DNA from: Allomyces arbusculus
Taxonomy: Eukaryota; Blastocladiomycota; Blastocladiomycetes; Blastocladiales; Blastocladiaceae
Reading direction: 5' to 3'
Length of the DNA stretch: 64,000 nt
NCBI GenBank assembly: GCA_027604705.1
Contig: JADHYV010000006.1
Location: 248,001-312,000 of the forward strand
The notes under the pieces are model-generated. The model did not search any database and was not told where the DNA came from. It worked only from the letters and a program-made list of their open reading frames with translations. The translations under genes were made by a program, and so were the position numbers. Shown piece by piece: positions 30,009 to 62,148 of this stretch. The first letter of the stretch is position 1; each line of letters begins with the position of its first letter.

Positions 30009-30254
30009 TCAACAGCAGCTGTAGCATATCTCAGCGTCGGCAGCGGTCCGCGCATGACGCTTGCGTGGGCGCACGGTTTCCGCGACAATCTCGATCTCGC
30101 TGTTGGCGTCGCCGTCGTCGTCGGACAACAGCATTACGGTGCCGCCGTCATCGGATACGTCGAGCTCCACGACCTCGATGGCAGAGGCCTTGCACTTGGT
30201 TCCGCGGCGCTCGCTGCCGCTGGCGTGGTGGTCGTCGTCTTGGTCGGAGTCCAT
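30009..30254 (-). pseudogene. 5' fragment of a GRDP-like/ubiquitin-like family gene
   Basis: Starts MDSDQDDDHHASGSE and continues through an acidic stretch (LSDDDGDANSEIEIVAETV) into a basic patch (RPRKRHAR). The same order appears at the start of the neighbouring broken copy (ALSSDDDGDLEIVAETV then PPKRRAR, near 31.42-31.48 kb). Only this N-terminal part is left here; neither the WH.HxLDT domain nor the ubiquitin-like domain follows. It lies just downstream of that copy on the same strand, so a tandem duplication followed by truncation is likely. The basic patch after acidic residues could be a nuclear-localisation signal. Confidence 0.6.
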
Positions 30255-30552
30255 GGCGTTGGCGGAGAGCGCGGCAGTCGACGCTCAGGCGCGCTCAGCA
30301 ACATGTAATGAGAGACGCGTTGCCAGCGTTGACCGACTCGCTCTCGTTGGTGCGGTCCTCTCAGAACCCGCGCGCGAGACGTCAGCGCAGCAACGGGGAT
30401 TTGAGTCGTGTCAACTTGCTTCGCTGCAACTGACGTGGCGATGACTTGCGTCGACCAGGGACTCAATTGTACCTTTCCAATTGTCAGGACCTGCGCGTCA
30501 CAAAATATTGATAAGAAGCAACAATCCATGACGACCAGGAAACAACGTTGAT

Positions 30553-31538
30553 TCAGAAAAATTGCTTTACTTTCCTTCGTTCCACCATCAGCACCCACGC
30601 ATCCACAAACACGCATGCAAAAGTGACCTCGGGCGTGATCCCAACCTCGGCCGCTGTCGTCTCGCTCGGATTCAGAATCATCCCACCAAAAACCAGCATG
30701 TAGCCGTCGTAGCACGGCAAGAGGCCCGCCTGTTCTTGATAAATGTTCTGCAGTCGCGCCACCGTATCAGCCGGCTGCAAGCGACTTGCGTCTGTTACGC
30801 CAGTCAACCCCTTGACAAAGACTTGCATCACAATGCCACCACCAGGGTGAATCGTCAAAGAATTGTGCCAAATGACCTTGTGAATTGGCACATCGCCGCC
30901 GTCTTTGCACGCGTACCGCGCCCGGTAGCACTCGCGCGTGTTCGTCGCGGTTGCGAAAATCAGTGTCGCGCGCACCCTTGGGGTTGTGGTGAATCAAGAA
31001 GGGCAGCTTGGCGCACATGGCCACGTAGGACTTGGTGTCGAGAATGTGCGCGTGCCAGACGAGGTCAATAATCGGGCTTGGTGAGAGAAGTTGCGCATGG
31101 GCGTCGTGGTACGACGTTGAGGTATTCGAGCAGCAGTTTCGGGAGCATGGGCATGGGCATGGGGAAGCGCGCGTCGTGCTTCAGGTCGTCTTCGAGCGAC
31201 GACAAGTTGAGATCGTGCTCGAGAAATTGGACTTCGGCCGCATTCATGATGAGAAAATTGAAATGGGGCGCGACGGTCGCAGTGGCAGCAGGTGAGGTAG
31301 CGCCTGGTACAGGACGCGGCGGCGGTGGGGCCGAGTTGGTTGCGGCGAGTCGAGTGGGTACGTGCAGGTCCGAGGCAACCGCGGCGGCACGAGCCCGACG
31401 CTTGGGTGGGTGCACTGTTTCGGCGACAATTTCAAGATCGCCGTCGTCGTCGGACGAGAGCGCTACGACGTCGGCCTTCCGCTTGGCTCTGCGGCGTCAA
31501 TCATTGGCTGCATCTTGGTGGTCTTGCGCAGAAGACAT
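30553..31538 (-). pseudogene. GRDP-like + ubiquitin-like gene, broken
   Basis: A member of the local family that couples a GRDP-like (DUF1399) domain to a C-terminal ubiquitin-like domain. Pieces in order: start MSSAQDHQDAAND (31538), acidic and basic N-terminal stretch, AAEVQFLEHDLNLSSLEDDL, then SPIIDLVWHAHILDTKSYV and PFLIHHNPKG, then RECYRARYA. The ubiquitin-like part is MQVFVKGLTGVTDASRL, LVFGGMIL and AAEVGITPEVTFACVFVD. There is an in-frame TGA early in the N-terminal region, and frame changes between LLLEYLNVV and AQLLSPSP and again before RECYRARY. So the protein cannot be made as one chain. The ubiquitin-like domain is the best-preserved part and remains open. Confidence 0.75.
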
Positions 31539-32364
31539 GGTGCTGTTTACTGTCTGCCCGCCGGTCCTGTCGCCGGCGCGTTGAGCGTGCTGGCGCCGAC
31601 AACGGAGAGAAGAGCGCGAGATCATGGAAACGTCAACTCAGAAAAAGTCTTCCAGCCCAATCAAATCATGGCGAGACACTCATTTGACTCAGTCCATCCA
31701 GAACAAGGGGCACAGAACTTGCATTCAGGGCTGTTTAGAAACCTGGCTCTGTCGAATCAACCAAGCCGCACAATTTGAACGTCCAGCGATGCGCCAACTT
31801 GGTCTCTCTGCAACCTCACCCACAACCGAGCCATCCGCTCAACGACCCATCCCTTCGTCCCATCTTTCTCCATCCACCTCACGGCGCAAGTATGCTCGCT
31901 TCAACCGTCGCGCGCCCCGCCCGCGCATCAACATTACATTTCGCCAAGGTCGCCCAGAACGGCAGCATCTCCCCGTGGTGCGAAACTTGTTTCACAGATT
32001 GCAACCGAAACAGCCGTCCTTCGCACCAACCAAGATCATACTTGCGCGAAGTACGGAAGAAACACTCCATTTAATTGCCGCGGATGAGAACGGAGCGAGA
32101 GGGACCGGGAATTGGACGTCGACGGGAACCGAAAGCAGAAAGGGGGGTAAATAAATTGAGAGCAAATATACAGCAAGGCAAATCATGGTTTTTCCAATCC
32201 GACTCTACGCCAACGTGGCTCGCGAGCGCCAGCGCCATTTCCACACACACATCGAAATTTGAAGTCCACACCCAACGCGTCGTCACCTTGTCCTCGTCGT
32301 GTTTGGGTCATCATCATCTTGATCGTCTTCCTTTTACGTCGCCGTAGCAGCGCCGTCAGGCACT
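31539..32364. other. Intergenic
   Basis: About 825 bp between the broken GRDP-like gene and the 3' end of the MFS transporter. Several short plus-strand frames (for example from 31624) show no homology. I see nothing certain here. Confidence 0.35.
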
Positions 32365-35507: not shown

Positions 35508-36030
35508 ATGGATCCAACGCACGACCACCGAGCAGCCGACAGTCGATCCTGTCATGGATTGAAGGCACGGCCCCGACGACGACGATAGTGACACCGACGC
35601 CATTGAAAATGTCGCCAGACGGCCGGCCGATTCCTCACGTGTCCCAAAGCGTCGAGCCATTGGACTAGACGTGCGGACTGCTCTGGTCAATTCGACAGCG
35701 GGCTCCCGCTTTTGCACGCAAACGTTCCTCAAACCTCGATTTCTCGCATCTCCCCGACGACCTGACCTGCGGCACGACTTGCACGGCCCGCCAACCAATT
35801 TCCGTCGTGGACCGCCCGGCACGTTCCAGGTCTTGGTTTGGGGGACCAAGGCCGAATGGACGTGCTGTACGTGCGGCTGACCGACACGGTCGCGCGCCTG
35901 CACGAGCAGTACCACGACTTGGTCGGGTGGACGGGCGCGGCCGACTTGATTCGTTTGTCCTTGGGCAGCAGGAACCTTCTAAGCCGGCCCGAGCGACCAA
36001 GACCGAGGTTGGGATTACGAAGGAGTGAGT
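35508..36030 (+). pseudogene. GRDP-like/ubiquitin-like family relic, core missing
   Basis: It starts MDPTHDHRAADSRSCHG, comparable to MDSDQDDDHHASGSE of the 30.2-kb fragment. It then passes in another frame through an acidic stretch and basic patch (DDDDSDTDAIENV, PKRRAIG). The only other recognisable part is the start of the ubiquitin-like domain (VLYVRLTDTVARLHEQYHDLV...LSLGSRN). The whole GRDP-like WH.HxLDT core that separates these parts in intact members is missing. So the relic has lost its centre and has frame changes. It sits directly upstream of an intact member on the same strand. Confidence 0.55.
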
Positions 36031-36202
36031 GCTCGATCAGGGCAAGGATTCGTTTTCTCATCTATTTCGTGCTTGACGAATGATGGTACTTGTTCGCATA
36101 TTTGCCTCCGTTCAATTTGATTTTGGGGACCCACGCAATGGCAGGTGACAGTGCGGTGGCAGCTGTTCGCGCTGGTCAGCTCACGGTCAACTCTGCGACA
36201 CG

Positions 36203-37135
36203 ATGCGCGCGCGTTGTGCAGCGAAAACGACTTCATCGAAAGCATTTTGCTCACCCTCCTTGTCGTTTCCCCCACCTTCAGCAAGGATCACGCCGTGCAC
36301 CACGCTCGACCCTACGACCCCTCCCCGCGCCGTGATCCAGGCCGCGACCGACGCCGTGATCCACTTTCTTGAACACGACCTCGACTTGACCACGCTCGCC
36401 AGCCATTTGCGCCGCTCTGCCGCGCTGCCCGCCGACGTCGACCTCGCGCTGCGCGAGTACCGCCGCTTCCTGATCCTCAAGGTCATGCACCGCGACGAGC
36501 ACGCGATCCTGCTCTCGCCGAGCCCTGTCGTCGATACTGTATGGCACGCGCACATGCTCGATACGCGCGCATACCTGGCCATGAACGACCAGCTGCCGTT
36601 CTTTGTCCACCACGACCCGCGCGGCGCGTACGACGAGGACGCCGCGAACCGCGCGCGCCGACTTGACAACACGCGTGCGTGTTACCGGGCGCGCTGGGGC
36701 GACATGCCCGCCGCCGTTCTGGACGACACGGTCGAGCAACAGCCCCCAACTCCACCGGCCCCTGCTCTACACCCAGCACCTGTTCCACCGGCACTGTCAC
36801 CCGTCCCGTCTCCATCGGTATCTCCCACGCCGTCCATGCCGACATCCCCAGCACCACTGAGCGGAGACTCGTCGACATCGGTTCGGGCCAAGGACGGTGT
36901 CGTTGCCCTGACCATCCAAGAACTGCCGGGAAGCGCAACATGTGTCCACGCGCGCTTGTCGGAGACGGTCGCGCGCGTCATGGCGCGGTACTCGCACGAC
37001 GTTGGCCTGTCGAATGTGAAGTGGCAAACCGTCGTCTGCAACTCCAAGACGCTCGATAAACGGCATACGCTCTCGCAGTGCGGCATCGCGAATGGCGCGA
37101 TCCTGGGCGTGATTCGAGTGCGGCGCGGGTGCTGA
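36203..37135 (+). CDS. GRDP-like + ubiquitin-like domain protein, intact
   Basis: An intact 310-residue member. Residues about 40-185 form the GRDP-like (DUF1399) domain: VIHFLEHDLDLTTLASHL, LALREYRRFLILKV, then SPSPVVDTVWHAHMLDTRAY and PFFVHHDPRG, closing with YRARWGDMPAAV. A Pro/Ser-rich linker follows. Residues about 233-308 form a ubiquitin-like domain: VVALTIQELPG, LSETVARVMARY, LDKRHTLSQCGIANGAILGV. It lacks a C-terminal Gly-Gly, so it is unlikely to be conjugated. In plants GRDP proteins act in stress responses; their biochemical role is unclear. No splice site is needed. The ATG at 36203 is the first in frame. Function in this organism is unknown; the domain pairing is what the sequence shows. 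Confidence 0.8.
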   Translation: MRARCAAKTTSSKAFCSPSLSFPPPSARITPCTTLDPTTPPRAVIQAATDAVIHFLEHDLDLTTLASHLRRSAALPADVDLALREYRRFLILKVMHRDEHAILLSPSPVVDTVWHAHMLDTRAYLAMNDQLPFFVHHDPRGAYDEDAANRARRLDNTRACYRARWGDMPAAVLDDTVEQQPPTPPAPALHPAPVPPALSPVPSPSVSPTPSMPTSPAPLSGDSSTSVRAKDGVVALTIQELPGSATCVHARLSETVARVMARYSHDVGLSNVKWQTVVCNSKTLDKRHTLSQCGIANGAILGVIRVRRGC

Positions 37136-37314: not shown

Positions 37315-38505
37315 TTGCACCTCGCGCACATCGATTCATCCTCGCCCCTCCCCCACGGACCTCGATCCACGACAAGGACGCACCTATATCAGCAGCAGCC
37401 GTCGCGCGCCGCTGCGTCGCGCGCGCATCCGTACGCGAAACCGCAGGCCTACGCGACGCCGCACGACGGCGCATGGTGGCCGCTGGCACTCTACCAGTAT
37501 TGGCTCGTTGCAGCATCCCCGTCGCTCGGCACGGCGCCGTATGGCGCGTGGTCGTGCGGCGTGCCCCTGCTACCACTGCCGTCGTGGTTCTCGTCGTACT
37601 GTACCATTCCAGTGCCGTCGCAAGGGCATCAGCAGCGCGCCAACACGCACGCGCGGCCATCGACGGTTGTCGTCGATAACTCCCAAGCGGGTCGACAGGC
37701 CGTACCTACACCCGCCGATCGTCAAGTTGCTGTCCCGGCGCCGCCGGCCGAGCCCACGCGTGCGTCCCGCGCCGAGATCCAGGCCGCGACAGATGCGGCG
37801 GTCCGCTTTCTCGAGCACAACCTCGACCTGACGACGCTCGCCAAGCACCTCCAGCGCGCACCTAAACCCGCCCGTGGACATGGACCTCGCACTGCGCGAA
37901 TACCGCCGGTTCCTGATTCGCAAGGTCGTGCATCGCGGCGAGCGCGCGACGCTGCTCTCGCCCGGTCCGCACATTGACCAAGTCTGGCACGCGCATGTAC
38001 TCGACACGCAGGCCTACATGGCCATGAACGAGCAGCTCCCGATCTACATTCATCACAATCCGAACGGCGCGTACGACGAGGACGCGGCGAGCCGTGCGCG
38101 TCGACTCGACAACACGCGCGTGTGTTACCGTGTGCGGTGGGGCGAGCTGCCGGCGGCCATGTGGGACAACAACGTGCCCGCTCGGCCGGCGTGCCGCGGC
38201 ACGCGCGCGCCGTCGCCCACACCGGTCCAGCATCGGCGGCGGCGGCCCGTAAGTACGGGACGATGGAGGCGGTGCTGATTTCCGACGACGAGAAGCCGCC
38301 ATATCGCGCTCGTGTCTGTGAGTGGATGCAGGTGCAGGTGGTCGCTGCGGCGTTTGCGGCGCGATTCGGCGAGGACATGTCCAAACTGCGGCTCTCGGAC
38401 GCTGGCGCACGGTTGGACTTGGCGCTGACGTTGGCCGAGTGCGGGCTTCACGCCGACGACGGGCCGCATACGATTGATGTCGCGCACGAGCAGGTGGGGT
38501 GCTGA
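37315..38505 (+). pseudogene. GRDP-like + ubiquitin-like gene, probably broken
   Basis: A further tandem member. A long N-terminal Pro/Ala-rich part (QQQPSRAAASRAH) leads to AAVRFLEHNLDLTTLAKHL. A one-base frame change around 37860-37875 (AAACCC) separates it from MDMDLALREYRRFLIRKV, PHIDQVWHAHVLDTQAY, PIYIHHNPNG and YRVRWGELPAAM. A second frame change is explained by a good 83-nt intron (38249-38331, GTAAGT...GCAG, phase 0), which leads to the diverged ubiquitin-like end (KLRLSDAGARLDLALTLAECGL). No ATG exists in the N-terminal frame before the domain, so the start is missing or in an unseen exon. With the frame change this suggests a pseudogene, although a sequence error is possible. Confidence 0.65.
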
Positions 38506-38634
38506 GCGGCGGCGGGTGGGTGGGGGGCCGGGTTGGGCGACTTGACACATTGTGCTGCACAGCACGCACTCCGCTCCCGCTCCCTCTCTTACTCACTTCT
38601 CAGTCCCCGATTCCCAGCAACGACGTGCTCGTCA

Positions 38635-39145
38635 TGGACCCGAACCAGCAACAGCAGCAGCAGCCGTCGTCGTCGCGCGATGCCGCCCGGCCTACCAACC
38701 CCACGGCGCACCATCAAGCGCCCGCACTGCCGCAAGAACCGTCGCGCGCCGCCACGTCGCGCGCCCATTCGTACGCGAGGCCGCAAGACGGCGCCCTGTT
38801 GCCGCTCCCACAGGGCCGGCACTCGCACGCTGCGGCCAACCCATCGCCTTCGAGTGCGTAGCGCAGCGGCAGCAGCCGGACGGCGGGGCCGCGCACCCGC
38901 CCATCGCCGCCAGTGGCCGCCCACCACCCTCCGCGCCTGCCGCGGGCGGCCATCAAGCTGCTCTTCCTGCGTCAGCGGAGCCTACGACCGCGCCCCGCAC
39001 CGAGGTCCAGATCACGACCGACGCGGCGATCCACTGTCTCGAGCACGACCTCGACTTGACGACGCTCGCCGCGCACCTGCGCCGCTCATCGACGCCGCCA
39101 TCAACATGGACTTTGCGCTGCACGAGTACCGCCGGTTCCTTTGCC
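38635..39145 (+). pseudogene. GRDP-like family gene, truncated
   Basis: The start MDPNQQQQQQPSSSRDAARP and EPSRAATSRAHSYARPQDGA match the N-terminal part of the preceding tandem copy. After frame changes the GRDP-like domain begins (AAIHCLEHDLDLTTLAAHL, then INMDFALHEYRRFL) and stops there: the WH.HxLDT half and the ubiquitin-like domain are gone. It is the 3' end of a tandem group of four members (35.5-39.1 kb) that becomes more damaged downstream. Confidence 0.65.
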
Positions 39146-41256: not shown

Positions 41257-43218
41257 ATGGAACCAAGCTCTCCAGGACCTATCGGCAAACTGCCCAATGG
41301 CCCTGTGTCAGCCATGGAAACGCCTGTCATCGCACTGTCGGCCGAATCAGATCGTCCGCCTTCACCACCTGCGCAAACATCTTACATTGACCAGCTTCCT
41401 TTTGATATTGTCGAAGTCTTGTGCCGGACCGTGCACAAAGTGGCAGGCTGTGACACATTGCTCAAGATGGCGTTGGCGTCTTCCTCTCTCTTTGCTCTGG
41501 CTGTCTCGACGGTGGTGCAAGAAGGATTGAATTTTGATTGGCGCGTGGCACAGTATTCATCCACGCTTTCCAAGGAGCGGTATCTTTCCACTCGAGCACT
41601 GGCTGTTGGATCGTTTGTCACATTTGTCGCAGAATGGGATTGGCCACTAGTATCGAGGGGGCCGACTTGTACAGTTATTGCTTGGCACTTGGCACTCCCG
41701 CTGCGTTCTGCGACGCGTGAACTTGTTCCGCACTCGAACCTCACCAATGGTACTCGCCAAGTTGCTGGAGTGGTGAGCGCCAAGTGGTCTCTGGTCCCCA
41801 TCCCAAATACCCAGCTCCGCACGTACACGGTTCGCGACACCGATGTCGCACGACTTGCTCTTCCCTCGCATCTACAGTCGCTGTCGTTCTTCAGCGACAG
41901 GGCCATCCCAGACGCTCGATGCCGTGAGCTCCCGCACACGCTCCAGTCGCTCACTATCATCACATTTGGGCGCTCGCCCGTCGATCTCACCCTTGTTGCA
42001 TCCCACATGCCATTGTTGCTTCGCTCTCTCGCGCTCACTGTGCTAGAGGACGTCACTGATGACGTGCTCGCCAAACTCATGGCTCGTTTACCTGGGACGC
42101 TTGAAGTGCTCCACGTTGACGTCAATGCCGACGAGGCAATTGGTGAAGAGTATGGGCGCGCCCTTATCGAGCGCATTCCACATCTCCCGCGTTTGGAGAT
42201 CCTTTACATCGTATGGCCGGTAATTCTCTGGCCCGCTCTCCATGCCGCGCTTGTCGAGAAGGAGACAAGCCGCTCTGCCGTGCCGGTCGACTATTTGCAC
42301 TTGACCATGGTGCACCCGCTCACACCCATCTTTACCCCTCTCCCGTCTTCCCTTTGCGTGTCCGAGCGACTGGAGATCAAGGACGTGGACGTGGACTTGC
42401 ACGACACGCAGATCTACGATTTAGAGGGCGACGATGACAAGTTGGCCAACGTCGTCAATTTCATTCTTCGCAACTTTCCAGTGGCAACGCGAACGCTCCA
42501 TGTCAATTTCCTGACTTGGAAGCCAGAATGGCTGAGCCGTCTCCTGACGCTGATTCCATCGACTTTGCGCACTCTCGGACTTGGCAGCGAGGTGCGGTTA
42601 CATCCACGCAATTTTGCAGATACCAGCTTTCCCTCCACGATCCGGCACTTGCGTCTGTACAAGTGCCTCGACCCGCAGCACATCCAGTCGCTGGGTGTTG
42701 ACCATGTTGCATGGTCTGCCATGTGGAATTCGCTCGTGTCTCTGGTTCTGACAGAGAGCAATCTTACTCTGTCGGACCTGGAGAAATGGCTCCCGCTCTC
42801 GGCTTGGCCGCTACAGCTGCGCCAAATTGTTTTGAGTCGGAACAGGCTTGAGTCATTGCCCCAGCAGCCGCCGCTCCCGTCCAGTCTCGTCCAGCTCAAT
42901 ATGTCGGAGAACAAGCTCGAAGCGTTGCCACGCCCGCTCCCGCCAAGACTTGTCCAGCTCTCCTTGAGCGACAATCCAGACATGGTGGCCAGGGACTCAG
43001 ACCCTTACGAGTGGGCCGCAAACCTGCCTTTGTCGCTACGTGTGCTGGAGATCAAGAACTGCTGTGTGGACGATCGTATTGGCGATGGGCTCTTGAATTG
43101 GGTGGGACGGCTCGCAAAGCAGCAGGCACGTCGCGTTCAGATTCGATTTGGTAGGAACACAATTTCCGCGCACGTGTTGGACGAACTTGGTCGTCGTGTT
43201 GGGGAGGTAGGGGCGTGA
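41257..43218 (+). CDS. F-box-like/LRR protein
   Basis: An intact, intronless 653-residue protein. After a Ser/Pro-rich start, residues 43-85 resemble an F-box (IDQLPFDIVEVLCRTV... LLKMALASSSLFALAV), the part that in F-box proteins binds Skp1 in SCF ubiquitin ligases. The remainder is divergent leucine-rich repeat with LP.(S/T)L spacing (LPHTLQSLTI, LPGTLEVLHV, IPSTLRTLGL). The C-terminal repeats are the most regular (LPSSLVQLNMSENKLEALP). It closes with LSLRVLEIKNCCVDDRIGDG, the family's terminal signature. It is more diverged from the other members than they are from each other. Substrate recognition by the LRRs is inference; binding partners are unknown. The start is the first ATG in frame. 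Confidence 0.75.
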   Translation: MEPSSPGPIGKLPNGPVSAMETPVIALSAESDRPPSPPAQTSYIDQLPFDIVEVLCRTVHKVAGCDTLLKMALASSSLFALAVSTVVQEGLNFDWRVAQYSSTLSKERYLSTRALAVGSFVTFVAEWDWPLVSRGPTCTVIAWHLALPLRSATRELVPHSNLTNGTRQVAGVVSAKWSLVPIPNTQLRTYTVRDTDVARLALPSHLQSLSFFSDRAIPDARCRELPHTLQSLTIITFGRSPVDLTLVASHMPLLLRSLALTVLEDVTDDVLAKLMARLPGTLEVLHVDVNADEAIGEEYGRALIERIPHLPRLEILYIVWPVILWPALHAALVEKETSRSAVPVDYLHLTMVHPLTPIFTPLPSSLCVSERLEIKDVDVDLHDTQIYDLEGDDDKLANVVNFILRNFPVATRTLHVNFLTWKPEWLSRLLTLIPSTLRTLGLGSEVRLHPRNFADTSFPSTIRHLRLYKCLDPQHIQSLGVDHVAWSAMWNSLVSLVLTESNLTLSDLEKWLPLSAWPLQLRQIVLSRNRLESLPQQPPLPSSLVQLNMSENKLEALPRPLPPRLVQLSLSDNPDMVARDSDPYEWAANLPLSLRVLEIKNCCVDDRIGDGLLNWVGRLAKQQARRVQIRFGRNTISAHVLDELGRRVGEVGA

Positions 43219-46130: not shown

Positions 46131-46456
46131 TGCCGCGCAGCAAGAGACACGATTGGCCTGACCAGATTCAACAGACGACTGTTTTCCAGGGCCGATTTGG
46201 AAACATCTTTCTTTTCCGCTGCCTTGCAAGTGTTCACCGGCGCGATCTCTCACGACCAGTTGTGTATTTCAAAATGAAATCCGCGCGGCCGTGCTCGATC
46301 TTGCAAGTTGCCAGGCTGGCAGCCTCACCTCACGAACAAGAGGCGCGGGTCTTCTCGTGGTTAGGTCCTGGGACACTTCCCTCCACTCCACGTCTGCCAA
46401 TGTATTACCACCAGTAAACTAGCGAACGACCAACCACTTGCAACTAACTGCCAGAA

Positions 46457-48241
46457 ATGAATGACCAAGCATTATGGGCGCCAATTGAGTGCCTCCCGCC
46501 GGCGGTATTACACCGCCTATGCCGATGGATTCTTGATCGAGGCGGCCGTCGAGCACTGGTCCACTTTGCGCTTGCGTCGGGCCGATTCTTTGCGCCCAGT
46601 ATTTGGCGCGCCATCTCCGACCCAAGTTGCGAAGGCGATTTCAGCTCATCTGGACCACACGCAAACGACAATCTGATAGCATGGTGGAAGAGCCTCACAG
46701 GCATGTTTACGGTCGATCTCAAGTTTCCCAATGCAGAGAACGAAACGGCCGACGACGATGGCGACGTGACCATGGCGGATACTTGGGCCGTGCATCTTAT
46801 TCTGCCTGCTCGGACAGCTGAGCGTAAAAGCGTTGATCTGTCGGGCGGACTTGATGCGTTCGAGTCGCCTGCACCGAAATGGTCGACCATTCCGATCCCG
46901 CGGTTCCAGCTTTGCCATGTTCGCATCGATGTACCCGGGTCGCTCTCTATTTGGTCCGCATGCCGTCATCTCGAGATTCGCGGCGATTGGGACAGCCTTG
47001 GGCCTGCACATATTCCGTGTCCACCAACTGTCAAGAACCTCACGCTTACGGTCTATCCTGTCACTCCTGTTGCGCTCGCTGCCATTGGACGCTTCATTTT
47101 GCATTCGGCCGTTACCGACTTGACGCTCCTCATCGCCCAAGTTCCAAGCGACGAACTGCTGAGCTCTCTGTATGAGCATCTGCCATCGACGCTTGTGGCG
47201 CTCCGAGTCATTTCCCATGACACAGAAATGGGTTTTACCCGCTTTGCGGCCACTCTTGGGCCCAGCAGCGGCCCGATTCTTGCTCGTTCCCTTGGCAGGC
47301 TCGTGCATCTGACCTCGTTCCAACACGAGTTTCTCATGCCTGCCTCCTTGCCGCTCATCATTGATGCGATTACGGTCGTGCCCAAGGCCGAACGGCGCCC
47401 GCCCATGCGTTTGGTCAAGCTGCGCGTGCGACTCTTGTCGCCAGATTGTGTCCCCAAGAACCCCACTCGTGCGATTCCCACTCGGTCCATTGAACACTTG
47501 GATGTGAGTTTCATATCGTTTCGGAGTGCGTCATGCGGGCGAGTGCTGTCACTCTTGCCCGCTCCAACGCACTCGTTGCGTGTCGCTCTCCCCCAGTGGA
47601 CCAACGAAGTGGCTGCACCGCTCACCCAGTTGTTTGGGTCCCCGACGCTTCAAGAAGTGCACTTGCTCGGGGAAACGATGCCGCGCGTTGTCCAGACTCC
47701 GCCGCGGCTGCTCATGCCGTCCCTGGCACTCGACCGGCTGCGACCTGCCTTGACGACGCTCACGTTGACTGGTTGTCTGCCGAGCCGGCTCCTTGCCAAA
47801 TTCACCGACGCCAGCTGGACATTCCCAACCACCATCACGAGCCTCGATCTCAGTATGAACGGGCTACTGACGAGCGATCTTGCCTTCTTGGCCTCACGCT
47901 GGCCGCCGCAGTTGCAACGCCTCAACCTCGCGCGAAACCAGTTCCATGCAGTCGTCACCCCGCTTCCACAGACTTTGCGAGTTCTAAACGTTGCCCATAA
48001 CCTGGCCATGCGCGAGGACCTCCACCCGGAGCGGTGGATCTTGGCGTTACCCTTGGGCCTGGTCGAATTGAATGTGTCAATGTGCCAGTTGCCCGCAATC
48101 TTTGGGCCGCTGCTCTTACGCGCGCGCGAGAAGAGTGGGCAGCATCCGCGCCGTTCCGGGATGTGGTTGCAGATTCGGGCGGGTGGCAATTTCGAAATCC
48201 CGAACGACGTTGTGAAAGCGCTTATCAACGAGGGGCCGTGA
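46457..48241 (+). CDS. F-box-like/LRR protein
   Basis: An intact, intronless 594-residue member. Residues 9-50 are F-box-like (APIECLPPAVLHRLCRWIL... LVHFALASGRFFAPSI). A variable region with KWSTIPIPRFQL follows; this KWS..PIP block recurs in other copies. Divergent LRRs run from about residue 180, with the conserved block LTGCLPSRLLAKFTDASW and the regular repeats TITSLDLSMNGLLTSDLAFL, LQRLNLARNQFHAVV and LRVLNVAHNLAM. The end PERWILALPLGLVELNVSMC is the family signature. An F-box/LRR layout suggests an SCF-type adaptor; Skp1 binding has not been shown and the F-box match is weak. It lies in a same-strand tandem with the flanking members. Confidence 0.78.
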   Translation: MNDQALWAPIECLPPAVLHRLCRWILDRGGRRALVHFALASGRFFAPSIWRAISDPSCEGDFSSSGPHANDNLIAWWKSLTGMFTVDLKFPNAENETADDDGDVTMADTWAVHLILPARTAERKSVDLSGGLDAFESPAPKWSTIPIPRFQLCHVRIDVPGSLSIWSACRHLEIRGDWDSLGPAHIPCPPTVKNLTLTVYPVTPVALAAIGRFILHSAVTDLTLLIAQVPSDELLSSLYEHLPSTLVALRVISHDTEMGFTRFAATLGPSSGPILARSLGRLVHLTSFQHEFLMPASLPLIIDAITVVPKAERRPPMRLVKLRVRLLSPDCVPKNPTRAIPTRSIEHLDVSFISFRSASCGRVLSLLPAPTHSLRVALPQWTNEVAAPLTQLFGSPTLQEVHLLGETMPRVVQTPPRLLMPSLALDRLRPALTTLTLTGCLPSRLLAKFTDASWTFPTTITSLDLSMNGLLTSDLAFLASRWPPQLQRLNLARNQFHAVVTPLPQTLRVLNVAHNLAMREDLHPERWILALPLGLVELNVSMCQLPAIFGPLLLRAREKSGQHPRRSGMWLQIRAGGNFEIPNDVVKALINEGP

Positions 48242-48612
48242 AAGTTATTGAACTCGAATGCGCTATCACGTCGTTTCTTTTGTTCCGTCGATTTTGAATC
48301 TGTACATGTTGGTTTGCATCATCCCCTATTTCTCGTGCGATGGCCCCACACGTGTGGCCAACTAAACTCCCCAATAAAAGAATCTGGAGGGAGTACTGGG
48401 GCAAGAGGAGGCGGATTGGTCGCGATGTGTCGGCGTGGCGGATGCTTCCACATGATGTGGATGCATTGTCGCTTGACAAGGACGCTTGGATGGGGCAACG
48501 ACACGAAAACGTCTTTCCTTCACATTCTCCCTCCGATGCTCGACGCCAACCACGGCAGCACACTTGCTACAAAATTTTCACGAAAGCAACAGGCAGTCGT
48601 GATCCAAACGAT

Positions 48613-50475
48613 ATGCTCGCCGCGCAACATGCACCAACTGGACCTGCGGCAGCTCCTGAGCCTGGAAACACAGCCGTACGGAAACGTGGGATCCGCCAAC
48701 GTGCACCCATCGAGCGGATACCATACGACGTGCTTTACATAACATGCCAGTACTTGTTTGCCATTTCCGATCGGGAAACCCTCTTACGCTTCGCGCTTGC
48801 TGCCGCGTCCTGCTTTGCACCCGCCATTCGTCTCGCTATCGCTGCGCGCAACAACGATTGCTCCATTTGGTTCCATGCTGGTCCCATTCCCGTCGAGCAT
48901 GTGGATCAAGGGCCCAAGACCAATCCAGCCGTCTGGCGCCACCAAGTGGGCCAATACGTGTTCCGCACCCCAAGCTCCCGGGAGCCGTTCAACGCCAAGG
49001 GAATGTACGTCTACCGATTGATGCTGCCCAAGCGCGACAAGCATCGCCGGCTCTTGCCACAGTATCCGCCCGCTCCCTTGTCGGTTCCTTACTCGCCGAT
49101 CCACTCGTCGGTTCGCATCCCGGACGACCAGCTACGGCAAATGACGGTTCCAGTCATGCCGGCGCCACCAGCATGCTGGCACCTCAGCGTCCCAGAACGC
49201 TGGTCTCGGTGGGCCGACCGGACGGGCCATGTGCTGCCCGATACGCTCCAGTCGCTCCAGATCGTGAACTGTCAGTTTGACTCGCTCCAGACTACGATCA
49301 ATATTGCCGCGGTGCTCCCTCTGAAGCTCATGTCGCTCGAGATCTCGGTTTCTAAGACCGTGACCGACGATGGCGCACTGTGCTACTTGTTCGCGCATCT
49401 TCCACCGACGCTTTCTGAATTTCAGTTCTCTGTCGTTGGCGCCAACATGGAATCGCTGAACCACGGTATCGAGAGCACGCAGGCGCTCGTGACCGCGCTT
49501 GGCAGCCTTCCCACACTCACTGTCTTCAAGCACGACTGGTTGCGCATCAAGGACGTGGGACTTGTGCTGGACGCTCTTGCGTCACGCCCCGGTTACGCGA
49601 CGATGCGCTGCTGTTCGCTGGTGCTGCATGCGAGGAACACGGAATCGGCCGACTTGGCAACGTTGGAGCCCAGCATGGGCGCAACACTCCGTGTCGAGCA
49701 TCTCGATGTGTGCATCAGTTGCACGCGGCTGATGGGCATCGACAACGATTCCAACTATCCACGACACGTTCTGCCATTGTTACCGACTCCGATACGCTCG
49801 CTCCACCTGACTTCGCCATTGTGGACTGACGAGACAGTCGTGCAGCTGGTTGATCGCGTCGCTGCATCGCCAACACTCTGTGATTTCCGGCTCAATGGTG
49901 TCCCCGATCCTTTTATCGCTCGATTTGCACTGCGTCATTGGCTGACGACGGTCCTGCTCCCGACCAAGCTCCCATTGTCGATTACCTCGTTGACTCTGAC
50001 ACAGTGTCTGCCCGGGTGCTTCCTTGACGCTTATGGGGCGACCGATGCGGCGTGGACGTTCCCTACGACGGTGAAGCACATTGACCTGTCTTACAACCAC
50101 TTGATGGCGCCTGATCTGGCATTCCTGCGACCCAAGTGGCCGCCACAGTTGCTCTCCCTGCGGCTCGCCAAGAACAAATTCCACACGCTTGTGACGCCGC
50201 TGCCTGCGATGCTGCGCGTTCTGGATCTCCACGGCAACCCCAAGCTCTCTGATGAGCCCTTTCCGGAGGAGTGGATTGATGAATTGCCAACGAGTTTACG
50301 CGAGGTTGACGTAAGCGGATGTATGCTTGACGATGTCGCTGGGCGGCGATTGATGGCGCTTCGTCGGCGCGCTGGTGTCTCGCGCGCCGGTCATGCGAAG
50401 CTGCGCGTCATTGACGAGGGCAAGAGCTGGTTCTCGCCGAACATTTCCGCGATGCTGCGGTCAGATGTATTGTGA
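48613..50475 (+). CDS. F-box-like/LRR protein
   Basis: An intact member of 620 residues from the ATG at 48613. The frame is open back to 48340, but that stretch looks like leader sequence, and other members start close to the F-box-like part. F-box-like: IERIPYDVLYITCQYL, then LLRFALAAASCFAPAIRLAI (residues about 33-78). Divergent LRRs follow, with TLTQCLPGCFLDAY, WTFPTTVKHIDLSYNHL, LLSLRLAKNKFHTLV and LRVLDLHGNPKLSD. It ends PEEWIDELPTSLREVDVSGC and MLDDVAGRRL. The same blocks in the same order occur in the 46.5-kb gene, so these are tandem duplicates with diverged repeat surfaces. Function is inferred only from the layout. Confidence 0.78.
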   Translation: MLAAQHAPTGPAAAPEPGNTAVRKRGIRQRAPIERIPYDVLYITCQYLFAISDRETLLRFALAAASCFAPAIRLAIAARNNDCSIWFHAGPIPVEHVDQGPKTNPAVWRHQVGQYVFRTPSSREPFNAKGMYVYRLMLPKRDKHRRLLPQYPPAPLSVPYSPIHSSVRIPDDQLRQMTVPVMPAPPACWHLSVPERWSRWADRTGHVLPDTLQSLQIVNCQFDSLQTTINIAAVLPLKLMSLEISVSKTVTDDGALCYLFAHLPPTLSEFQFSVVGANMESLNHGIESTQALVTALGSLPTLTVFKHDWLRIKDVGLVLDALASRPGYATMRCCSLVLHARNTESADLATLEPSMGATLRVEHLDVCISCTRLMGIDNDSNYPRHVLPLLPTPIRSLHLTSPLWTDETVVQLVDRVAASPTLCDFRLNGVPDPFIARFALRHWLTTVLLPTKLPLSITSLTLTQCLPGCFLDAYGATDAAWTFPTTVKHIDLSYNHLMAPDLAFLRPKWPPQLLSLRLAKNKFHTLVTPLPAMLRVLDLHGNPKLSDEPFPEEWIDELPTSLREVDVSGCMLDDVAGRRLMALRRRAGVSRAGHAKLRVIDEGKSWFSPNISAMLRSDVL

Positions 50476-54956: not shown

Positions 54957-55856
54957 ATGCCCGGTACCACCTCGTTCTCAAGGCGCACCACCTCCCGCAA
55001 ACGGGCCACCGTGTCCGCGCGCAACGTCGCCGACGCTGTACCAGCCGGCTCGCCGTCGATTTCGACACCACCACCAAGGCAACCGAGCAATGGCCACGCT
55101 GCTCGACCACAACCACCATTACCGCCCGTCGACTCGGCCACTGTTCAGTTCCTCGAAAAGGAACTCGACCTGTCGGCGCTCGCCTCGGCGCTCAAGCACA
55201 CGCGGCACCCGTCCATCCCGGATGTTGACCTGGTTCTGCACGAGTACCGGCGCTTCTTGCTCTTAAAAGTCGCCTCCAAGGACGAATTCGCAACGATTCT
55301 CGCGGCTCCACCTCCGATTGCGCTGGTTTGGCACTTGCACATTCTCGACACGCAAGCCTACGCGGCCATGAACGCGCGGCTCCCCTTCTTTTTGCACCAC
55401 AAGCTCGCGAGCGCAAGCGACACGGCAGAACGCGCACGGCATCTCGTCACGTCGCGCGAGTACTACCGCGCGCGATGGGGCGACCCGCCGAATTCCGTGT
55501 GGGACCCGCCGCCGCTGACGCCGCCCGCACTACCAGCACCTGCGCAACCGCAGTCCAAGCCCGCGCAGGACACGACAGGCAATAAACTGCGGTTCCGTGT
55601 GCGGTTCCTGCAAGAGGACAAGGACATCGAGTTCATAATAGGCCCCAACACGACGGTCGGCAAAGTCAAGGCCGCGATTGCTGACCGGTGGCCCTACGAC
55701 GCGGCTAGCATGCAGTTTACGGCGCCCGACGGCGAACGGCTCGCTGATCATGTCAAGCTTATGGCGATCGGGCTCGTGGACGACGACGTGTTGCTGGCTG
55801 AGGCGACTCGACGCGAAGACGAGAATGACGAGAATGACGACAACGACGGACAGTGA
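54957..55856 (+). CDS. GRDP-like + ubiquitin-like domain protein, intact
   Basis: An intact 299-residue member from the ATG at 54957 (MPGTTSFSRRTTSRKR, basic, could be a nuclear or mitochondrial signal). GRDP-like domain: TVQFLEKELDLSALASAL, LVLHEYRRFLLLKV, IALVWHLHILDTQAY, PFFLHHKLA, YYRARWGDPPNSVW. A Pro-rich linker follows, then a ubiquitin-like domain: LRFRVRFLQEDKDIEF, NTTVGKVKAAIADRW, MQFTAPDGERLAD and GLVDDDVLLAE, with an acidic tail. No Gly-Gly end. It lies between LRR pseudogenes, away from the tandem group at 35-39 kb, so the family has moved as well as duplicated in tandem. No intron is needed. Confidence 0.8.
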   Translation: MPGTTSFSRRTTSRKRATVSARNVADAVPAGSPSISTPPPRQPSNGHAARPQPPLPPVDSATVQFLEKELDLSALASALKHTRHPSIPDVDLVLHEYRRFLLLKVASKDEFATILAAPPPIALVWHLHILDTQAYAAMNARLPFFLHHKLASASDTAERARHLVTSREYYRARWGDPPNSVWDPPPLTPPALPAPAQPQSKPAQDTTGNKLRFRVRFLQEDKDIEFIIGPNTTVGKVKAAIADRWPYDAASMQFTAPDGERLADHVKLMAIGLVDDDVLLAEATRREDENDENDDNDGQ

Positions 55857-55949: not shown

Positions 55950-56230
55950 GTCGACCAATTCGGGTTCCAATGCTCCGCTCGACGACCTTGATGTTCGCGT
56001 GACATCTTTGGCCGATTCGGTACACGCGAGCATTTCTATGGCGTGTGTGCACTATCTGTTACCGCTCCTCCCAAACCCGATGCGATCATTGCGCCTCGAG
56101 TCGTCTCAGTGGAACATGCTGCTGTTTGTCCGGATTGGCGATCTGATGCGGGTGTCGCCGACGCTCACGCACATGCACGTGCAGGCCGCCGATTTGTTGC
56201 CATGTCTTGCACAGTTCAAACCATGGTCAA
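55950..56230 (+). pseudogene. LRR gene middle fragment
   Basis: Reads APLDDLDVRVTSLADSV, LLPLLPNPMRSLRLESSQW and VSPTLTHMHVQA. This matches the middle of the intact 46.5-kb gene (SIEHLDVSFISFRSA, LLPAPTHSLRVALPQW, SPTLQEVHL). Neither the start nor the end of the gene adjoins it. Confidence 0.6.
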
Positions 56231-56590: not shown

Positions 56591-56789
56591 AACCGTTTGC
56601 TAACGAGGAGGCATTGGAAAATGCAATACTTGAGGCCACAACAGGCACAGCACGTGTCTCTGCACGGATGTGACACGCAAGAACGTGTGATTCACGTTGC
56701 GTGCAGATCCGCTCACGAATCTCGCCAGCTGCTCTGCAATCCTCACGATTCTGACTGATATTCAACCAACGAGAAGAGTTGCATCGACG

Positions 56790-57110: not shown

Positions 57111-57129
57111 CGGTGCGGAACGCATGAGA

Positions 57130-58865
57130 CGCGACCCACAAACCTCGGTGCCGGCGCCACCACACCGCGCCGGCGCCTCGGGAACCTGGCCGAACCAACG
57201 CTGCAGATGCTTACGCTCTGCCACATCGCCATCACCCTCACCACCCTGCCATCTCTATCATCTCTCTACCGCTTCCGTTCCATATCGTTCTCCATCGCGT
57301 CCTCTTCCTTCTCCACCCCGAGTTGGTTGCGTGCTTTGCCCGTTGTGATATATAAGGACGCGAGATCTGCAGACAAGAATACATTGATTAGAAGTGGCAG
57401 AGTCTGGTTTGCTTCCCGCGCACTACAACGCCAGGGTATCAGCCCTGCTTCGCTCTACCCAACCCCGCCTTTTCTCTCCCCGTTCTGCACACGCCTTCGG
57501 TCCGCACACCTCGCCCTCGCCCGCCGCCACCTACACGCCGCGACGCGACGGAAGCGAGCGACCCCAGGCTGAACGGCTACCAACACCACCACCTACGACC
57601 ACCACCGCCGCTTGCTGCCGCTCCTCGTCAGCGACCTCGCCCACCATCTTCCATTACGCGACGAACATCACCATGTCCGACGACACGATCCGCGACATCA
57701 AGATCACGCCGGCGCTGAAGAGCACCGACCCGCAGTCGTTTATCGCCTGGCGCGCGTCGGCCAAACTGCAGCTCGGCATTCACGGCTTGCTCAAGTACGT
57801 CGAAAGCCCGCGTGACGGCGTGCTAGCCACGCTCAAGACCGACACCGAGAAGCAGAAGGGCGTGATCGACGACATGCGGGCGGCGTTGGCGATCCAGTCG
57901 AGCTTGGGCGGCGACCAAGCGTACCTGGCGCACGAGTACGAGACGGCCTACGGCAAGCGGAAGGCGCTAAACGATCAGTTCATGCGCGAATCGAACGCAC
58001 GCGCGGTCGCGTTGCGTAGCAAGCTCAACCGGCTGCAGCCCAGGGCCGACGGCAGCGACATCGAGTCATACCTGCACGAGCTGCAAATGATCTACGCCGA
58101 GCTCGCGGCGAACGGCCGTGCCGTGCAGGAACAGGACAAGGTGCAGAAGGTGCTCGACGACTTGCCGACGGATCTGCTCTACATACGGTCGCACATCATG
58201 GGTCTCGACTTCAAGGCGCTTGACACGATCAATTTCCAAGACGTCGCAAACAAGGTGCGCTCCGGCGCCAAGTTGCTCAAGCAGAAAAGGAGTCGCTCGT
58301 CGCGCGAGGTTCAAGGGGCAATGTCGGCAACGTCCCGAGGCGGCGACAGCGGTCGTCAATCAGGCAAGAAAATCAAGTCGGGCAGCAAGGCGCGCGGCAA
58401 GGCGCGTGGGCCATGCTGGTAGTGCGGCGAGCACGGTCACATCCACACCGAGCGCCCGTCGGAGGGCACGGTCACGTTCAAGGTCGCCAAGACGGGTATC
58501 GAAATGGAAGCCATGGGAGTCGGCACGCTGCTTGGCAAGGTCAACGGCGCCAAGGTCGGTTTTTCCAAGGTCTATCACGTACCGGGTGCGTCGCGCACGC
58601 TTATCTCGGAGGGGCACCTGTTGAAGAACGGGTTCAAGGTCAACAAGGGCAACGGCAAGTTCCAGGTCAAGGACAATCACACCAAGGTCGTGTTTGCTGG
58701 AAAAGCAGTCGGCGACATCTTTCCATTCAAGATCACGAATGTCATCGTCAATATTAAGGACAATTCTATCCACAAGTCAGAGTCGCAGTCGGAGCCACAG
58801 TCTTGAGACGTGTCGGGCGAAGTTAGTGCCAGGCCAGTCATTAGAGCTGGCGTTCCAAGTGGGCG
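57130..58865 (+). mobile_element. Ty1/copia LTR retrotransposon, fossil fragment
   Basis: A broken Ty1/copia element. Parts seen: a leader region with a TATATAA box (about 57350), a gag region from about 57673 to 58420 with the copia-type gag core (ALKSTDPQSFIAWRASAKLQ, SKLNRLQPRADGSDIESYL), a zinc-knuckle-like stretch, and the start of the protease-side region (YHVPGASRTLISEGHLLKNG). Integrase, reverse transcriptase and RNase H are not present in the window. I could not define matching LTRs or target duplications. The gag region is well kept, so the copy is not very old. The limits given are where LRR homology stops and returns. Confidence 0.7.
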
Positions 58866-58869
58866 GGTG

Positions 58870-59390
58870 GGACATGGGCATTGGCCGCGCACAATACCTA
58901 CTCTTTCGTATTTTTTGACCTGGCTTCACAATTCCCGGCACTCACGTCGCTCGCGCTCACCAAGTGTGCGACCATGTCATGTGACCCGTGGAACGTGCCA
59001 GCAAGCGTGAAACGACTCGCACTGCGCCACAACAGCTTGACGACCGCCCACTTGCACACGATTCGCTGGCCGGCCCATCTCACACATCTTGTGCTTGCTC
59101 GAAACCGTCTGGATGGGATTCCGGCGGATTTGCCACCAAGTCTTCGTGCACTCGATGTGACTGGAAATTCGGAGCTTGGCCGGCAACCTGAGACGTGGGT
59201 CAATGCGCTCCCGCCCAATCTCCAGACGTCAGCCTTGAAGAAACGGCAAGTGAAGAAAGCGGATGCAGCTTTGAATGATGTGCACATTCGTGCAGGGCTC
59301 ACGCTTTCTGGAGAGCTCCGGTTTAAGTTTGATTTTGAACGAGAGTGGGTGATGATGGATGAGGACGCGCTGTTGTTTAAAGACGATTGA
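58870..59390 (+). pseudogene. LRR gene C-terminal part
   Basis: An open frame of 169 residues with regular C-terminal LRRs: LTSLALTKCATMSCDPWNV, SVKRLALRHNSLTTAHL, LTHLVLARNRLDGIP, LRALDVTGNSELG. It has no F-box-like part or start of its own. It is probably the 3' end of the LRR copy whose N-terminal fragment precedes the copia-like segment. The last 50 residues (LRFKFDFEREWVMMDEDALL) differ from other members. Confidence 0.6.
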
Positions 59391-59552
59391 TGAAGTGGCC
59401 GGAAGTGGCCGAGAAAGATTTTCTGGTTGTGAGATGTGGGTAATATGTTAATTTTTGCTCATTGTACTCCAATGACTGACAGACACTATTTTCGCAAGAG
59501 ATTCGCATTCCTCTCGTTGTGCATTCTAGTCAACCGCCGCACGATTTTGACA

Positions 59553-60095: not shown

Positions 60096-60735
60096 TTTTC
60101 AGACAGCATGAGGAGGTGTGTTGGTCTTGGGTCTTGAGCTGTCTCAATCCATGGAGCCTGGAGGCCTCACTGATCAAAACGGCGTGGGGAGGAATGCGTA
60201 GCGAGGAGCGAGGAAGAAGTTCGGGAACTATGCAGGGCAGTTGATATAAGCTGCAAAGTGACTTGGAACCAGATGTGGTTGTGCATCAACACTTCATTGC
60301 ACATTTGACCTTGAAGGAGTTGGAGGCCGTCATGCAGCCAGCAGTATTACTCAGGCAACACATGCGACCCTCAATTGCGCACTCTTTTGCTCTTCCTCTT
60401 TCGTGGCGTCTGCTGCGGCCGCCACTCCTGTCCATTGACACGATGCGCTTTAAGTATGTGTTGTCGTCGCGTGTCGCGTGTCTCGTGGCCAGGGATTCTT
60501 GACATCAAAACCAGGGGTCCCATATGGTGATCTCCGTGCTCCAAGTCGACAGGACTGCTCGACGATGCAATATCGGAAACTTGGGGCAAGGAGGACGAGC
60601 AAGGAGACGACGTTCAAATCATGCACCACAAGAGGCACGTGCGTTTGAGTCACTCTGGAAAGAAAGCTGTTCTCCGTCCTGCCTGCCGCCGCCTCTCTTC
60701 CGACACGCGTATCATCATCCACCCCAAACGCCGTG
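60096..60735. promoter_or_regulatory. Divergent promoter region
   Basis: 640 bp between the GTPase-like gene (-) and the two-domain GRDP-like gene (+). It includes TTGATATAAGC at 60241, a possible TATA-like word. No coding homology was found. Confidence 0.4.
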
Positions 60736-62148
60736 ATGGCGTCCATTGCCAGCGCTCCACCCCGCCACGACGCCGCCGCCATGGTCCTCGACACGGCCCT
60801 CGGCCTCGAGCCGATTGCCGCGCGCACGGGCGCGTCGGGCCTTCTATTGCGCGAGTACCAGCGCTTTCTCGCGCTCAAGGTCCTGCACCACGACAACCAT
60901 GCGCTCTTGCTCTCGCCCAGCCCGGTCATTGATCAGTTCTGGCACGCACACATTCTCGACACCAAGGTCTACACTGCCACATGCGCCAAGCTGCCCTTCT
61001 TCCTCCACCACGACCCGGCCGGCGCTTTGGATTCGTCATCCCGCACGCACCGCCGTGCCGCTACGCTAGCCACGTACCGCGCGCGGTTCAACGAGGATCC
61101 AATGGCCAATATCTGGGCCGTCAACCCAACCACCGAACTCGTCGCGACCCCCACGCCGCCGTTCCCGCCACTGGGCCCGAACCGCACGCCCGATGCGCTT
61201 CCTGTGACGACGACCGCGCTCGAGTTCCTCGACCGCTACCTCGACCTCGCGCCACTCGCCGCACACGTGTACCGGTTCCCGCCACTGGAACTGCCCTCGC
61301 CGACTCTCGTGCCGCACGCCGTGCGCGAGTACCGCCGGTTCATCGCGCTCAAGGTCCTGGCCGGCGACGCCGACGACACTCTCCTCGCGCCGAGTCCGCT
61401 CGTCGAGGCCATCTGGGCCGCGCACATTCTCGACACCCGCGCCTACGCGACCATGTGCACCCACCTCCCCTTCTTCATCCACCACGACCCGACACCCCGC
61501 GACCGGTCCGTGGAACTCGCAGCGACGGTCGACCGATACCAAGTGCAGTTTGGGACGGACCCGCCGACCGCCATTTGGGCGCCGCATACGGACCCGCCAC
61601 TGCCGCTGAGTCCCGTCTCGCTCCCGCCGACCCCGATGTCGCCTCCGCGCGACCGCGATAGGCCGTTTGGGCCGTCGGTGAGAAGGGTGAGGGTTCATGT
61701 CGCGAGTCATGGCGCGTCGGCGCTCGATGTGGTGGTGGATTCAGGCGGGACGGTGCGAGATTTGATGTGGGGGATATACCGCGAGCGCGGGGTCCCGCCA
61801 GAGGCGCAGCGGCTCACGTACCTTGGGTGGAAGCTCGATGGGTTGGAGTGGACGTTGCGCGAGTGCGGGATCGAGAGCGGGGCCACGGTCGTGTTGCGGG
61901 AGGCGCCGCGCGCGCAGGGGTTCCAGGTGGGAGTGCCGGCGGGGTTACGTTCGACCACGGCGGGGTTTGCTTTCCAGCAACCGCCGGCTGTGCAGACGAC
62001 GTCGCTGTTCGGGTTCACGACGGCGGCGGCGTGGCCGCCTGTGCACTGGTCGCTGCCGCCGGGCGGACCACTGACGACGTGGCCACCCGCGCACTGGACG
62101 ATGCCGCCGGGAGGAGGAGGACCGGCACCGTCCCGCGGGTTTTGCTGA
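60736..62148 (+). CDS. Protein with two GRDP-like domains and a ubiquitin-like domain
   Basis: An intact 470-residue member with the GRDP-like unit duplicated. Unit 1 (residues about 35-130): LLLREYQRFLALKVLH, SPVIDQFWHAHILDTKVY, PFFLHHDPAG, YRARFNEDPMANIW. Unit 2 (about 160-280): ALEFLDRYLDLAPLAAHV, AVREYRRFIALKVL, SPLVEAIWAAHILDTRAY, PFFIHHDPTP, YQVQFGTDPPTAIW. Unit 1 lacks the FLE..LDL helix. A Pro-rich linker leads to a clear ubiquitin-like domain (about 315-390): RVRVHVASHGASALDVVV, TVRDLMWGIY, RLTYLGWKLDGLEWTLRECG. No Gly-Gly end; a Pro/Gly/Trp-rich tail with repeats (WPPVHWSLPPGG, WPPAHWTMPPGG) follows. Unit 2 has WAAH where others have WHAH, so that histidine is lost. Function unknown. 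Confidence 0.82.
   Translation: MASIASAPPRHDAAAMVLDTALGLEPIAARTGASGLLLREYQRFLALKVLHHDNHALLLSPSPVIDQFWHAHILDTKVYTATCAKLPFFLHHDPAGALDSSSRTHRRAATLATYRARFNEDPMANIWAVNPTTELVATPTPPFPPLGPNRTPDALPVTTTALEFLDRYLDLAPLAAHVYRFPPLELPSPTLVPHAVREYRRFIALKVLAGDADDTLLAPSPLVEAIWAAHILDTRAYATMCTHLPFFIHHDPTPRDRSVELAATVDRYQVQFGTDPPTAIWAPHTDPPLPLSPVSLPPTPMSPPRDRDRPFGPSVRRVRVHVASHGASALDVVVDSGGTVRDLMWGIYRERGVPPEAQRLTYLGWKLDGLEWTLRECGIESGATVVLREAPRAQGFQVGVPAGLRSTTAGFAFQQPPAVQTTSLFGFTTAAAWPPVHWSLPPGGPLTTWPPAHWTMPPGGGGPAPSRGFC

Follow-up and report, generated by a model that had tools for sequence, protein, structure and literature searches.

GRDP-like domains (Pfam PF07173, DUF1399) share a WHxH ... Y ... H core and are represented by the plant proteins AtGRDP1 and AtGRDP2 and by bacterial and viral members. 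AtGRDP2 is described as having a putative RNP-1 motif and a C-terminal region rich in glycine (PMC4299439); GRDP-like counts for two Hydra species are tabulated as 9 and 7 (PMC7642931), and a GRDP-like protein is reported from Metarhizium (PMC11457142). Here we describe a gene family of Allomyces arbusculus in which the homologous domain has a different partner. It lies in a 64,000-nucleotide stretch of contig JADHYV010000006.1 (assembly GCA_027604705.1, positions 248,001 to 312,000), the whole of which we call the window, and its eight copies, A to H (Table 1), arose from one gene type by tandem and dispersed duplication; this gene type combines a bacterial-type GRDP-like domain with a C-terminal ubiquitin-like domain lacking Gly-Gly. 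Where the C-terminus of AtGRDP2 is described as glycine-rich, that of the Allomyces copies is ubiquitin-like; by eye, a glycine-rich C-terminal region is absent from D and G, and the tail of H is Pro/Gly-rich. Many bacterial and viral GRDP-like open reading frames (ORFs) instead carry Cys-, Gly- or His-rich tails. The ubiquitin-like half resembles ubiquitin in sequence and, for H, in its model, but it belongs to a larger protein and has no Gly-Gly. Rad60, Esc2 and NIP45 offer another likeness, with a C-terminal ubiquitin fold without Gly-Gly and an acidic, possibly SUMO-binding N-terminus such as that of copies A and B. The Allomyces proteins differ in having a single ubiquitin-like domain and no Rad60-SLD-type match above cutoff (copy G scores 14.2 bits with PF11976 and 16.0 bits with PF13881, against cutoffs of 23.8 and 23, and D and E score lower), and we know of no GRDP-like domain in proteins of the Rad60 type. 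Both parts are known, and their combination appears to be little described: among the matches listed from the open-licence PubMed Central literature, none describes a GRDP and ubiquitin-like protein. The first-pass annotation of this DNA had already remarked that it knew of no description of such a pairing, which needs one reservation, as a protein of Terrestrivirus may share it.

The copies were delimited by tblastn, DNA self-comparison and three-frame reading. All eight had been credited with the same full order; it holds for the five copies in which both domains are present (B, D, E, G and H), whereas A consists of an N-terminus, C has little of the GRDP-like domain and F is truncated. The three copies called intact (starting at 36203, 54957 and 60736) do have open reading frames, and the proposed mixture of intact and broken copies, produced by birth and death, is borne out, D, G and H being open and the others decayed, partial or, in E, interrupted by frame changes. 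Copy H departs from the assumed single GRDP-like domain per copy, as it has two, the second with WAAH. The supposedly nearly intact copy at 37315 (E) keeps the full order but contains two frame changes, one relative to D near 37870 and a second switch between the GRDP-like and ubiquitin-like halves, which is a lesion or splicing; a GTAAGT at 38249 opens a candidate intron of 83 or 89 nt, which would cost the ubiquitin-like domain its first strands. In a set of ORFs at 26566-29586 the frame switches across short GT...AG intervals (about 85 and 75 nt, by eye), which suggests splicing in the Allomyces genome, and frame changes in the copies are therefore not all necessarily lesions. Copy B is interrupted by a stop codon in frame near 31499 and changes frame twice, near 31115 and near 30945, and copy F breaks off inside the GRDP-like domain, before the WHxH motif. 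D, E and F are closest to one another in both sequence and position, with DNA identities by self-comparison of 76.6% over 406 bases (D-E), 78.7% over 164 (D-F) and 75.6% over 193 (E-F). The acidic N-terminus is seen in A and B and, by eye, is missing from D, G and H as their frames now read. In A and B it holds a basic stretch and motifs resembling SUMO-interacting motifs; copy A has three matches, where shuffled sequences average 0.185 and 47 of 5000 reach as many, a result that carries little weight, as the pattern was written after the sequence had been seen. Copy A yielded no GRDP-like part in the profile search, no Pfam family and no ubiquitin-like part. Five window proteins had no match in PHROGs and no relevant one in NCBIfam.

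The GRDP-like character of the N-terminal half is carried by bacterial and viral intermediates. An alignment of the six window domains gave 113 pattern matches in bacterial and archaeal genomes, of which 105 were confirmed as relatives and the best 80 kept; the best of them has 42% identity (E-value 1e-14, relative to the candidates only). These 80 bacterial ORFs (L001-L080) and 16 viral ones make up a set of 96, and 66 of the 96 match PF07173 at an E-value up to 0.01 (L003, for example, with 32.9 bits). When a profile built from 54 bacterial and viral domains, with zero window rows, was searched against the window translated in six frames (1,198 pieces), it found six GRDP-like domains in five copies: H at an E-value of 1.7e-35 (60649-62145, two domains), D at 3.7e-21, E at 4.5e-18, G at 4.2e-14 and B at 6e-12. 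The next window piece reached 1.2, and the best piece of five codon-shuffled windows 0.39. Because the relatives match PF07173 and the bacterial/viral profile finds the window domains, the homology of the window domains to the GRDP-like family, read from these sequence comparisons, is firm. Direct matches to PF07173 all fall under its curated cutoff of 22.7 bits: P0003 (copy H) scores 19.7 bits in two stretches, P0001 14.8, P0002 13.3 and the copy E fragment 12.9, and Pfam gave no PF07173 match for the B and F fragments. Taken literally, the proposed assignment of the window proteins to PF07173 came close to failing, and it is the intermediates that uphold it. In window and bacterial/viral proteins alike, the best stretches of the PF07173 alignments span about positions 85-143 of the 143-position model.

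Aligned with one another, the window domains keep WHxH in five of six cases and the Y and HH in all six. Among the 96 relatives the invariant columns are W, H, H, T, Y and H, and WHxH is present in 96 of 96, the loci having been picked by patterns that contain or favor that motif. The GRDP-like domain of copy D is predicted to be all-helical, with a predicted local distance difference test (pLDDT) score mostly of 82-97; in the model of H the first GRDP-like domain is like that of D and the second is lower (about 61-79). PDB searches returned no significant solved structure related to the GRDP-like part.

A ubiquitin partner was sought among the relatives as well. Pfam (E-value up to 0.01) found no ubiquitin family in the 96 bacterial and viral ORFs, some of the viral ones being cut short. 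Their tails contain repeated YC-type motifs (18 ORFs), CxCR-type motifs (27), CPxCG (9) or a Gly/Cys/His/Ser-rich end (8), by patterns written after looking, and tails of the first three kinds have the look of peptide precursors or of metal-binding regions. When the D model was used in a structure search of viral models, two matches appeared at an E-value up to 0.001. One is a Harvfovirus GRDP-like protein (7e-5, target template-modeling score 0.70); the other, A0A3G4ZPD8 from Terrestrivirus, is annotated as "Ubiquitin-like domain-containing protein" (208 residues) and matches in Foldseek at 1.6e-4 with probability 1.00, in an alignment of 260 columns including gaps and a root-mean-square deviation of 18.3. 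Terrestrivirus is termed a giant virus in one report (PMC10897400). The structural match suggests both domains, so that A0A3G4ZPD8 may carry the GRDP-like and ubiquitin-like pairing; several scans of viral contigs did not recover a similar pairing, two of them yielding one and the same pair of contigs and another none. A W-H-x-H...Y...C pattern gave 19 viral stretches, 17 of them with a GRDP-like ORF (by a profile that included window rows and after preselection for the motif). A Pfam scan of 15 of the 17 detected no ubiquitin family in any of them, although several run off the end of their stretch and may there lack a further domain; the remaining two lie on contigs of L081, itself among the ORFs scanned. 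With a less strict pattern, 75 stretches were obtained, 67 of them new, none with a GRDP match at an E-value up to 1e-3, and 3 of 50,697 phage records weakly match the D domain (best 2e-4). We note three features of individual relatives. L003 matches TIGR04135, a family of Cys-rich peptides modified by radical-SAM enzymes, at 16.6 bits, well below its cutoff of 45. Six of the 80 bacterial loci (L036, L040, L044, L070, L075 and L078) have common downstream ORFs, which by eye resemble a methyltransferase, a TauD-like oxygenase and a UvrA-like ATPase. A cyanobacterial ORF (L047:1284-2942) has two GRDP-like domains in the same tandem layout as copy H.

The claim of a C-terminal ubiquitin-like domain without Gly-Gly stood up, with differing strength from copy to copy: we regard it as well supported in H and B, fair in D and G, and weak in E. 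In Pfam, H passes the cutoff of PF00240 (27.5 bits against 25.4), D (22.4), G (16.3) and B (16.1) stay below it, and the E fragment has no match. Local alignment with ubiquitin, each against 1000 shuffles, places B (Z 16.7-18.6), H (11.7-12.1), D (8.6-8.9) and G (5.0-5.1, 1 in 1000 shuffles as high) beyond the shuffles; E follows with Z 3.6 (6 in 1000), and the part of C alone is not above them (Z 0.6), its resemblance being to D (Z 5.1) and B (Z 5.8). The alignment scores are 92 for B, 67 for H, 52 for D, 48 for G, 35 for E and 24 for C. As a control, 300 random window pieces were drawn, of which 95 were open and the rest held stops; the maximum was 39 and the 95% level 32, and E and C, being below that maximum, therefore do not stand out. 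Copy B matches a single-domain ubiquitin in the PDB at an E-value of about 4e-5, and G finds SUMO as its top PDB match (0.015). The structure predictions give a mixed picture: 48 of the 50 listed PDB neighbors of the H model (of 459 at an E-value up to 10) are ubiquitin-family by title (ubiquitin, NEDD8, SUMO, and related proteins or their fusions), the best reaching 0.044 and none 0.001, and the ubiquitin-like part of D is predicted at low confidence. All five copies with a C-terminus lack the Gly-Gly end and finish in VRRGC (D), DNDGQ (G), SRGFC (H), VGC (E) or VKQFF (B), and H continues for 77 residues beyond the ubiquitin-like domain.

The two halves have diverged to different degrees. Identity between copies is 41.3-71.6% for the GRDP-like domain and 17.9-29.1% for the ubiquitin-like domain (10 pairs from five domains in each case), and for B, D, G and H alike, ubiquitin gives a higher score than any other copy does. 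Some similarity between copies stands above shuffles (as high in 2 of 1000 for D-C, 0 of 1000 for B-C and 2 of 1000 for E-H); the ubiquitin-like part of G shows nothing beyond shuffles when compared with those of D, H, B and C. In a tree of the window domains and their bacterial and viral relatives, the six window GRDP-like domains form one clade against 54 bacterial/viral rows (support 99/96), as duplicates should, with a long stem (2.41), no resolved sister and a warning for long-branch effects; it singles out no bacterial clade as donor in a possible horizontal transfer. The ratio of nonsynonymous to synonymous divergence (dN/dS) is 0.26 for D-E (dS 0.65) and 0.30-0.79 for the other 14 pairs (dS 0.67-1.26); as the dS of those 14 is near saturation, purifying selection is indicated for D-E alone. 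Local birth and decay of copies is well supported, and the duplications are not recent.

Our preferred reading, to which we give a probability of about 0.45, is that one ancestral fusion would have joined a GRDP-like domain to a ubiquitin unit, that each ubiquitin-like domain would then have drifted from ubiquitin on its own as the GRDP-like core was held, and that the protein acts as a putative non-conjugatable adaptor. If ubiquitin, being very slow to change, stands for the ancestor, higher scores to ubiquitin than between copies would be expected from a single fusion after which the copies drifted fast and independently, and the pattern fits such a history. With no Gly-Gly, the usual joining to targets is not expected and non-covalent docking is the default expectation; the protein would not be attached to others, and its ubiquitin-like domain would dock on some member of the ubiquitin or SUMO machinery. 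The invariant histidines suggest a ligand or metal pocket, through which the GRDP-like domain may hold a client or ligand, the pocket being possibly metal-binding.

Of the competing explanations, the one that survives best, though we consider it somewhat unlikely, holds that the ubiquitin-like half is dispensable and decaying, with selection on the GRDP-like domain only and a pairing without joint function. The gap between the halves (18-29% against 41-72% identity) and the decay of several copies speak for it, yet D, G and H, which are open and lie up to 26 kb apart, have each retained a ubiquitin-like region of full length in the same place, and B and H are still clearly ubiquitin-like. A second possibility is that different GRDP-like copies captured ubiquitin-family domains separately, ubiquitin in B and H and a SUMO-like domain in G. 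The higher scores of B, D, G and H to ubiquitin than to one another would follow, and the SUMO match of G and its lack of similarity to D, H, B and C make separate capture possible above all for that copy; but the domain order is identical in the five full copies, D-C, B-C and E-H similarities exceed shuffles, and the same score pattern is expected whenever one slow reference meets several fast descendants, so that we find separate capture improbable. Descent from an N-terminally extended ubiquitin-like modifier, the GRDP-like part having once been attached through a ubiquitin tail by an ability now lost or fading, is likewise improbable: the D tail ...VIRVRRGC aligns with ubiquitin VLRLRGG up to the last glycine, E ends in ...VGC and H in ...GFC, and in some ubiquitin precursors Gly-Gly is followed by a further residue, but no copy keeps Gly-Gly, the extra 77 residues of H and the acidic tail of G lie in the way, and the placement of the D tail is ambiguous by one residue.

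Several observations weigh against a single fusion that gave rise to a working adaptor. Copy E does not follow the score pattern, as it scores no higher with ubiquitin than with D and G (35 each) and reaches 42 with H, and the best of the 95 random pieces (39) outscores it on ubiquitin. The ubiquitin-like part is modeled at pLDDT 50-67 in D and unevenly in H (blocks of 44-80), and the D model found no convincing match in the PDB structure search. The signal of purifying selection is confined to D-E, of which E carries a frame change, and the fast divergence of the ubiquitin-like half could equally reflect relaxed constraint. Finally, the second GRDP-like domain of H has lost the first histidine (WAAH instead of WHAH), and the putative metal site is proposed from residue conservation.

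Table 1. Positions of the GRDP-like/ubiquitin-like copies and of other features in the window
Feature	Position	Strand	State	Parts and remarks	Basis
Copy A	30009..30284	-	acidic N-terminus alone	V/I/L-rich stretches beside acidic runs; basic RPRKRHAR	ORF, frame reading
Copy B	30553..31538	-	decayed, full order	N-terminus resembles that of A; GRDP-like 31180-30886; ubiquitin-like 30828-30592	tblastn, frame reading
Copy C	35508..36083	+	decayed	acidic/basic N-terminus and remnant of GRDP start (by eye); partial ubiquitin-like 35856-36009	frame reading
Copy D	36203..37135	+	open reading frame, 310 residues	GRDP-like 36338-36730; Pro-rich linker; ubiquitin-like 36896-37132; tail ...VIRVRRGC	
Copy E	37315..38505	+	full order, with frame changes	GRDP-like core 37883-38173; ubiquitin-like 38263-38502	ORF list, frame reading
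Copy F	38634..39141	+	truncated relative of D and E	N-terminus; first half of GRDP-like domain	tblastn (38921-39141), frames
Copy G	54957..55856	+	open reading frame, 299 residues	GRDP-like 55128-55517; ubiquitin/SUMO-like 55581-55826; acidic tail	
Copy H	60736..62148	+	open reading frame, 470 residues	GRDP-like 60838-61122 (WHAH) and 61207-61593 (WAAH); ubiquitin-like 61675-61914; Pro/Gly-rich tail	
LRR/F-box-like	41260-43215		open		
LRR/F-box-like	46448-48238		open		
LRR/F-box-like	48448-50472		open		
LRR/F-box-like	44556-46084		fragment		
LRR/F-box-like	51818-51223	-	fragment		
LRR/F-box-like	54598-52934	-	fragment		
LRR/F-box-like	56053-56166		fragment		
LRR/F-box-like	58938-59213		fragment		
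LRR/F-box-like	701-931		further member		
Copia-type gag ORF	57388-58419			PF14223, 38.1 bits	
SNF2-related protein with RING finger	11347-14211			PF00176 and several RING models	

A second local family, of leucine-rich-repeat (LRR) genes with an F-box-like N-terminus (by eye), is interleaved with the GRDP-like/ubiquitin-like copies, as seen by tblastn, and like them is a mix of open and broken members; Pfam found LRRs in three of six pieces and nothing in the other three. Between copies G and H sits a copia-type gag ORF, a possible agent of local rearrangement. The SNF2-related protein with a RING finger has a Rad5-like domain order. For 15 ORFs outside the family, a Pfam scan gave models of the major facilitator superfamily, LRRs, copia gag, SNF2/RING proteins or AAA helicases, and for some ORFs no clear match. 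The transporter, helicase, SNF2/RING and copia gag models, like the short GT...AG intervals, are in keeping with a eukaryotic genome. An insertion from a giant virus was considered as the source of the locus and set aside, as no viral hallmark appeared among these 15 ORFs. A bolder version of the single fusion would have it found a fast-diversifying putative adaptor family, in which the ubiquitin-like surface of each copy was retuned to a different partner, giant viruses share the architecture, and the F-box-like/LRR genes mark an arms-race cluster of the ubiquitin system; we think it quite unlikely.

Taken as a whole, the gene family in the window is genuine and local, and it brings two known domains together in an unusual way. 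GRDP-like domains occur in bacteria and viruses and have been reported in plants, fungi and Hydra, and to our knowledge no activity has been assigned to them. Their joining to a ubiquitin-like domain gives a first handle on the cellular context of the GRDP-like domain, and a GRDP-like core that is conserved beside a ubiquitin-like half that drifts fast presents a clear and testable case of the ubiquitin fold escaping the constraint that usually freezes it.

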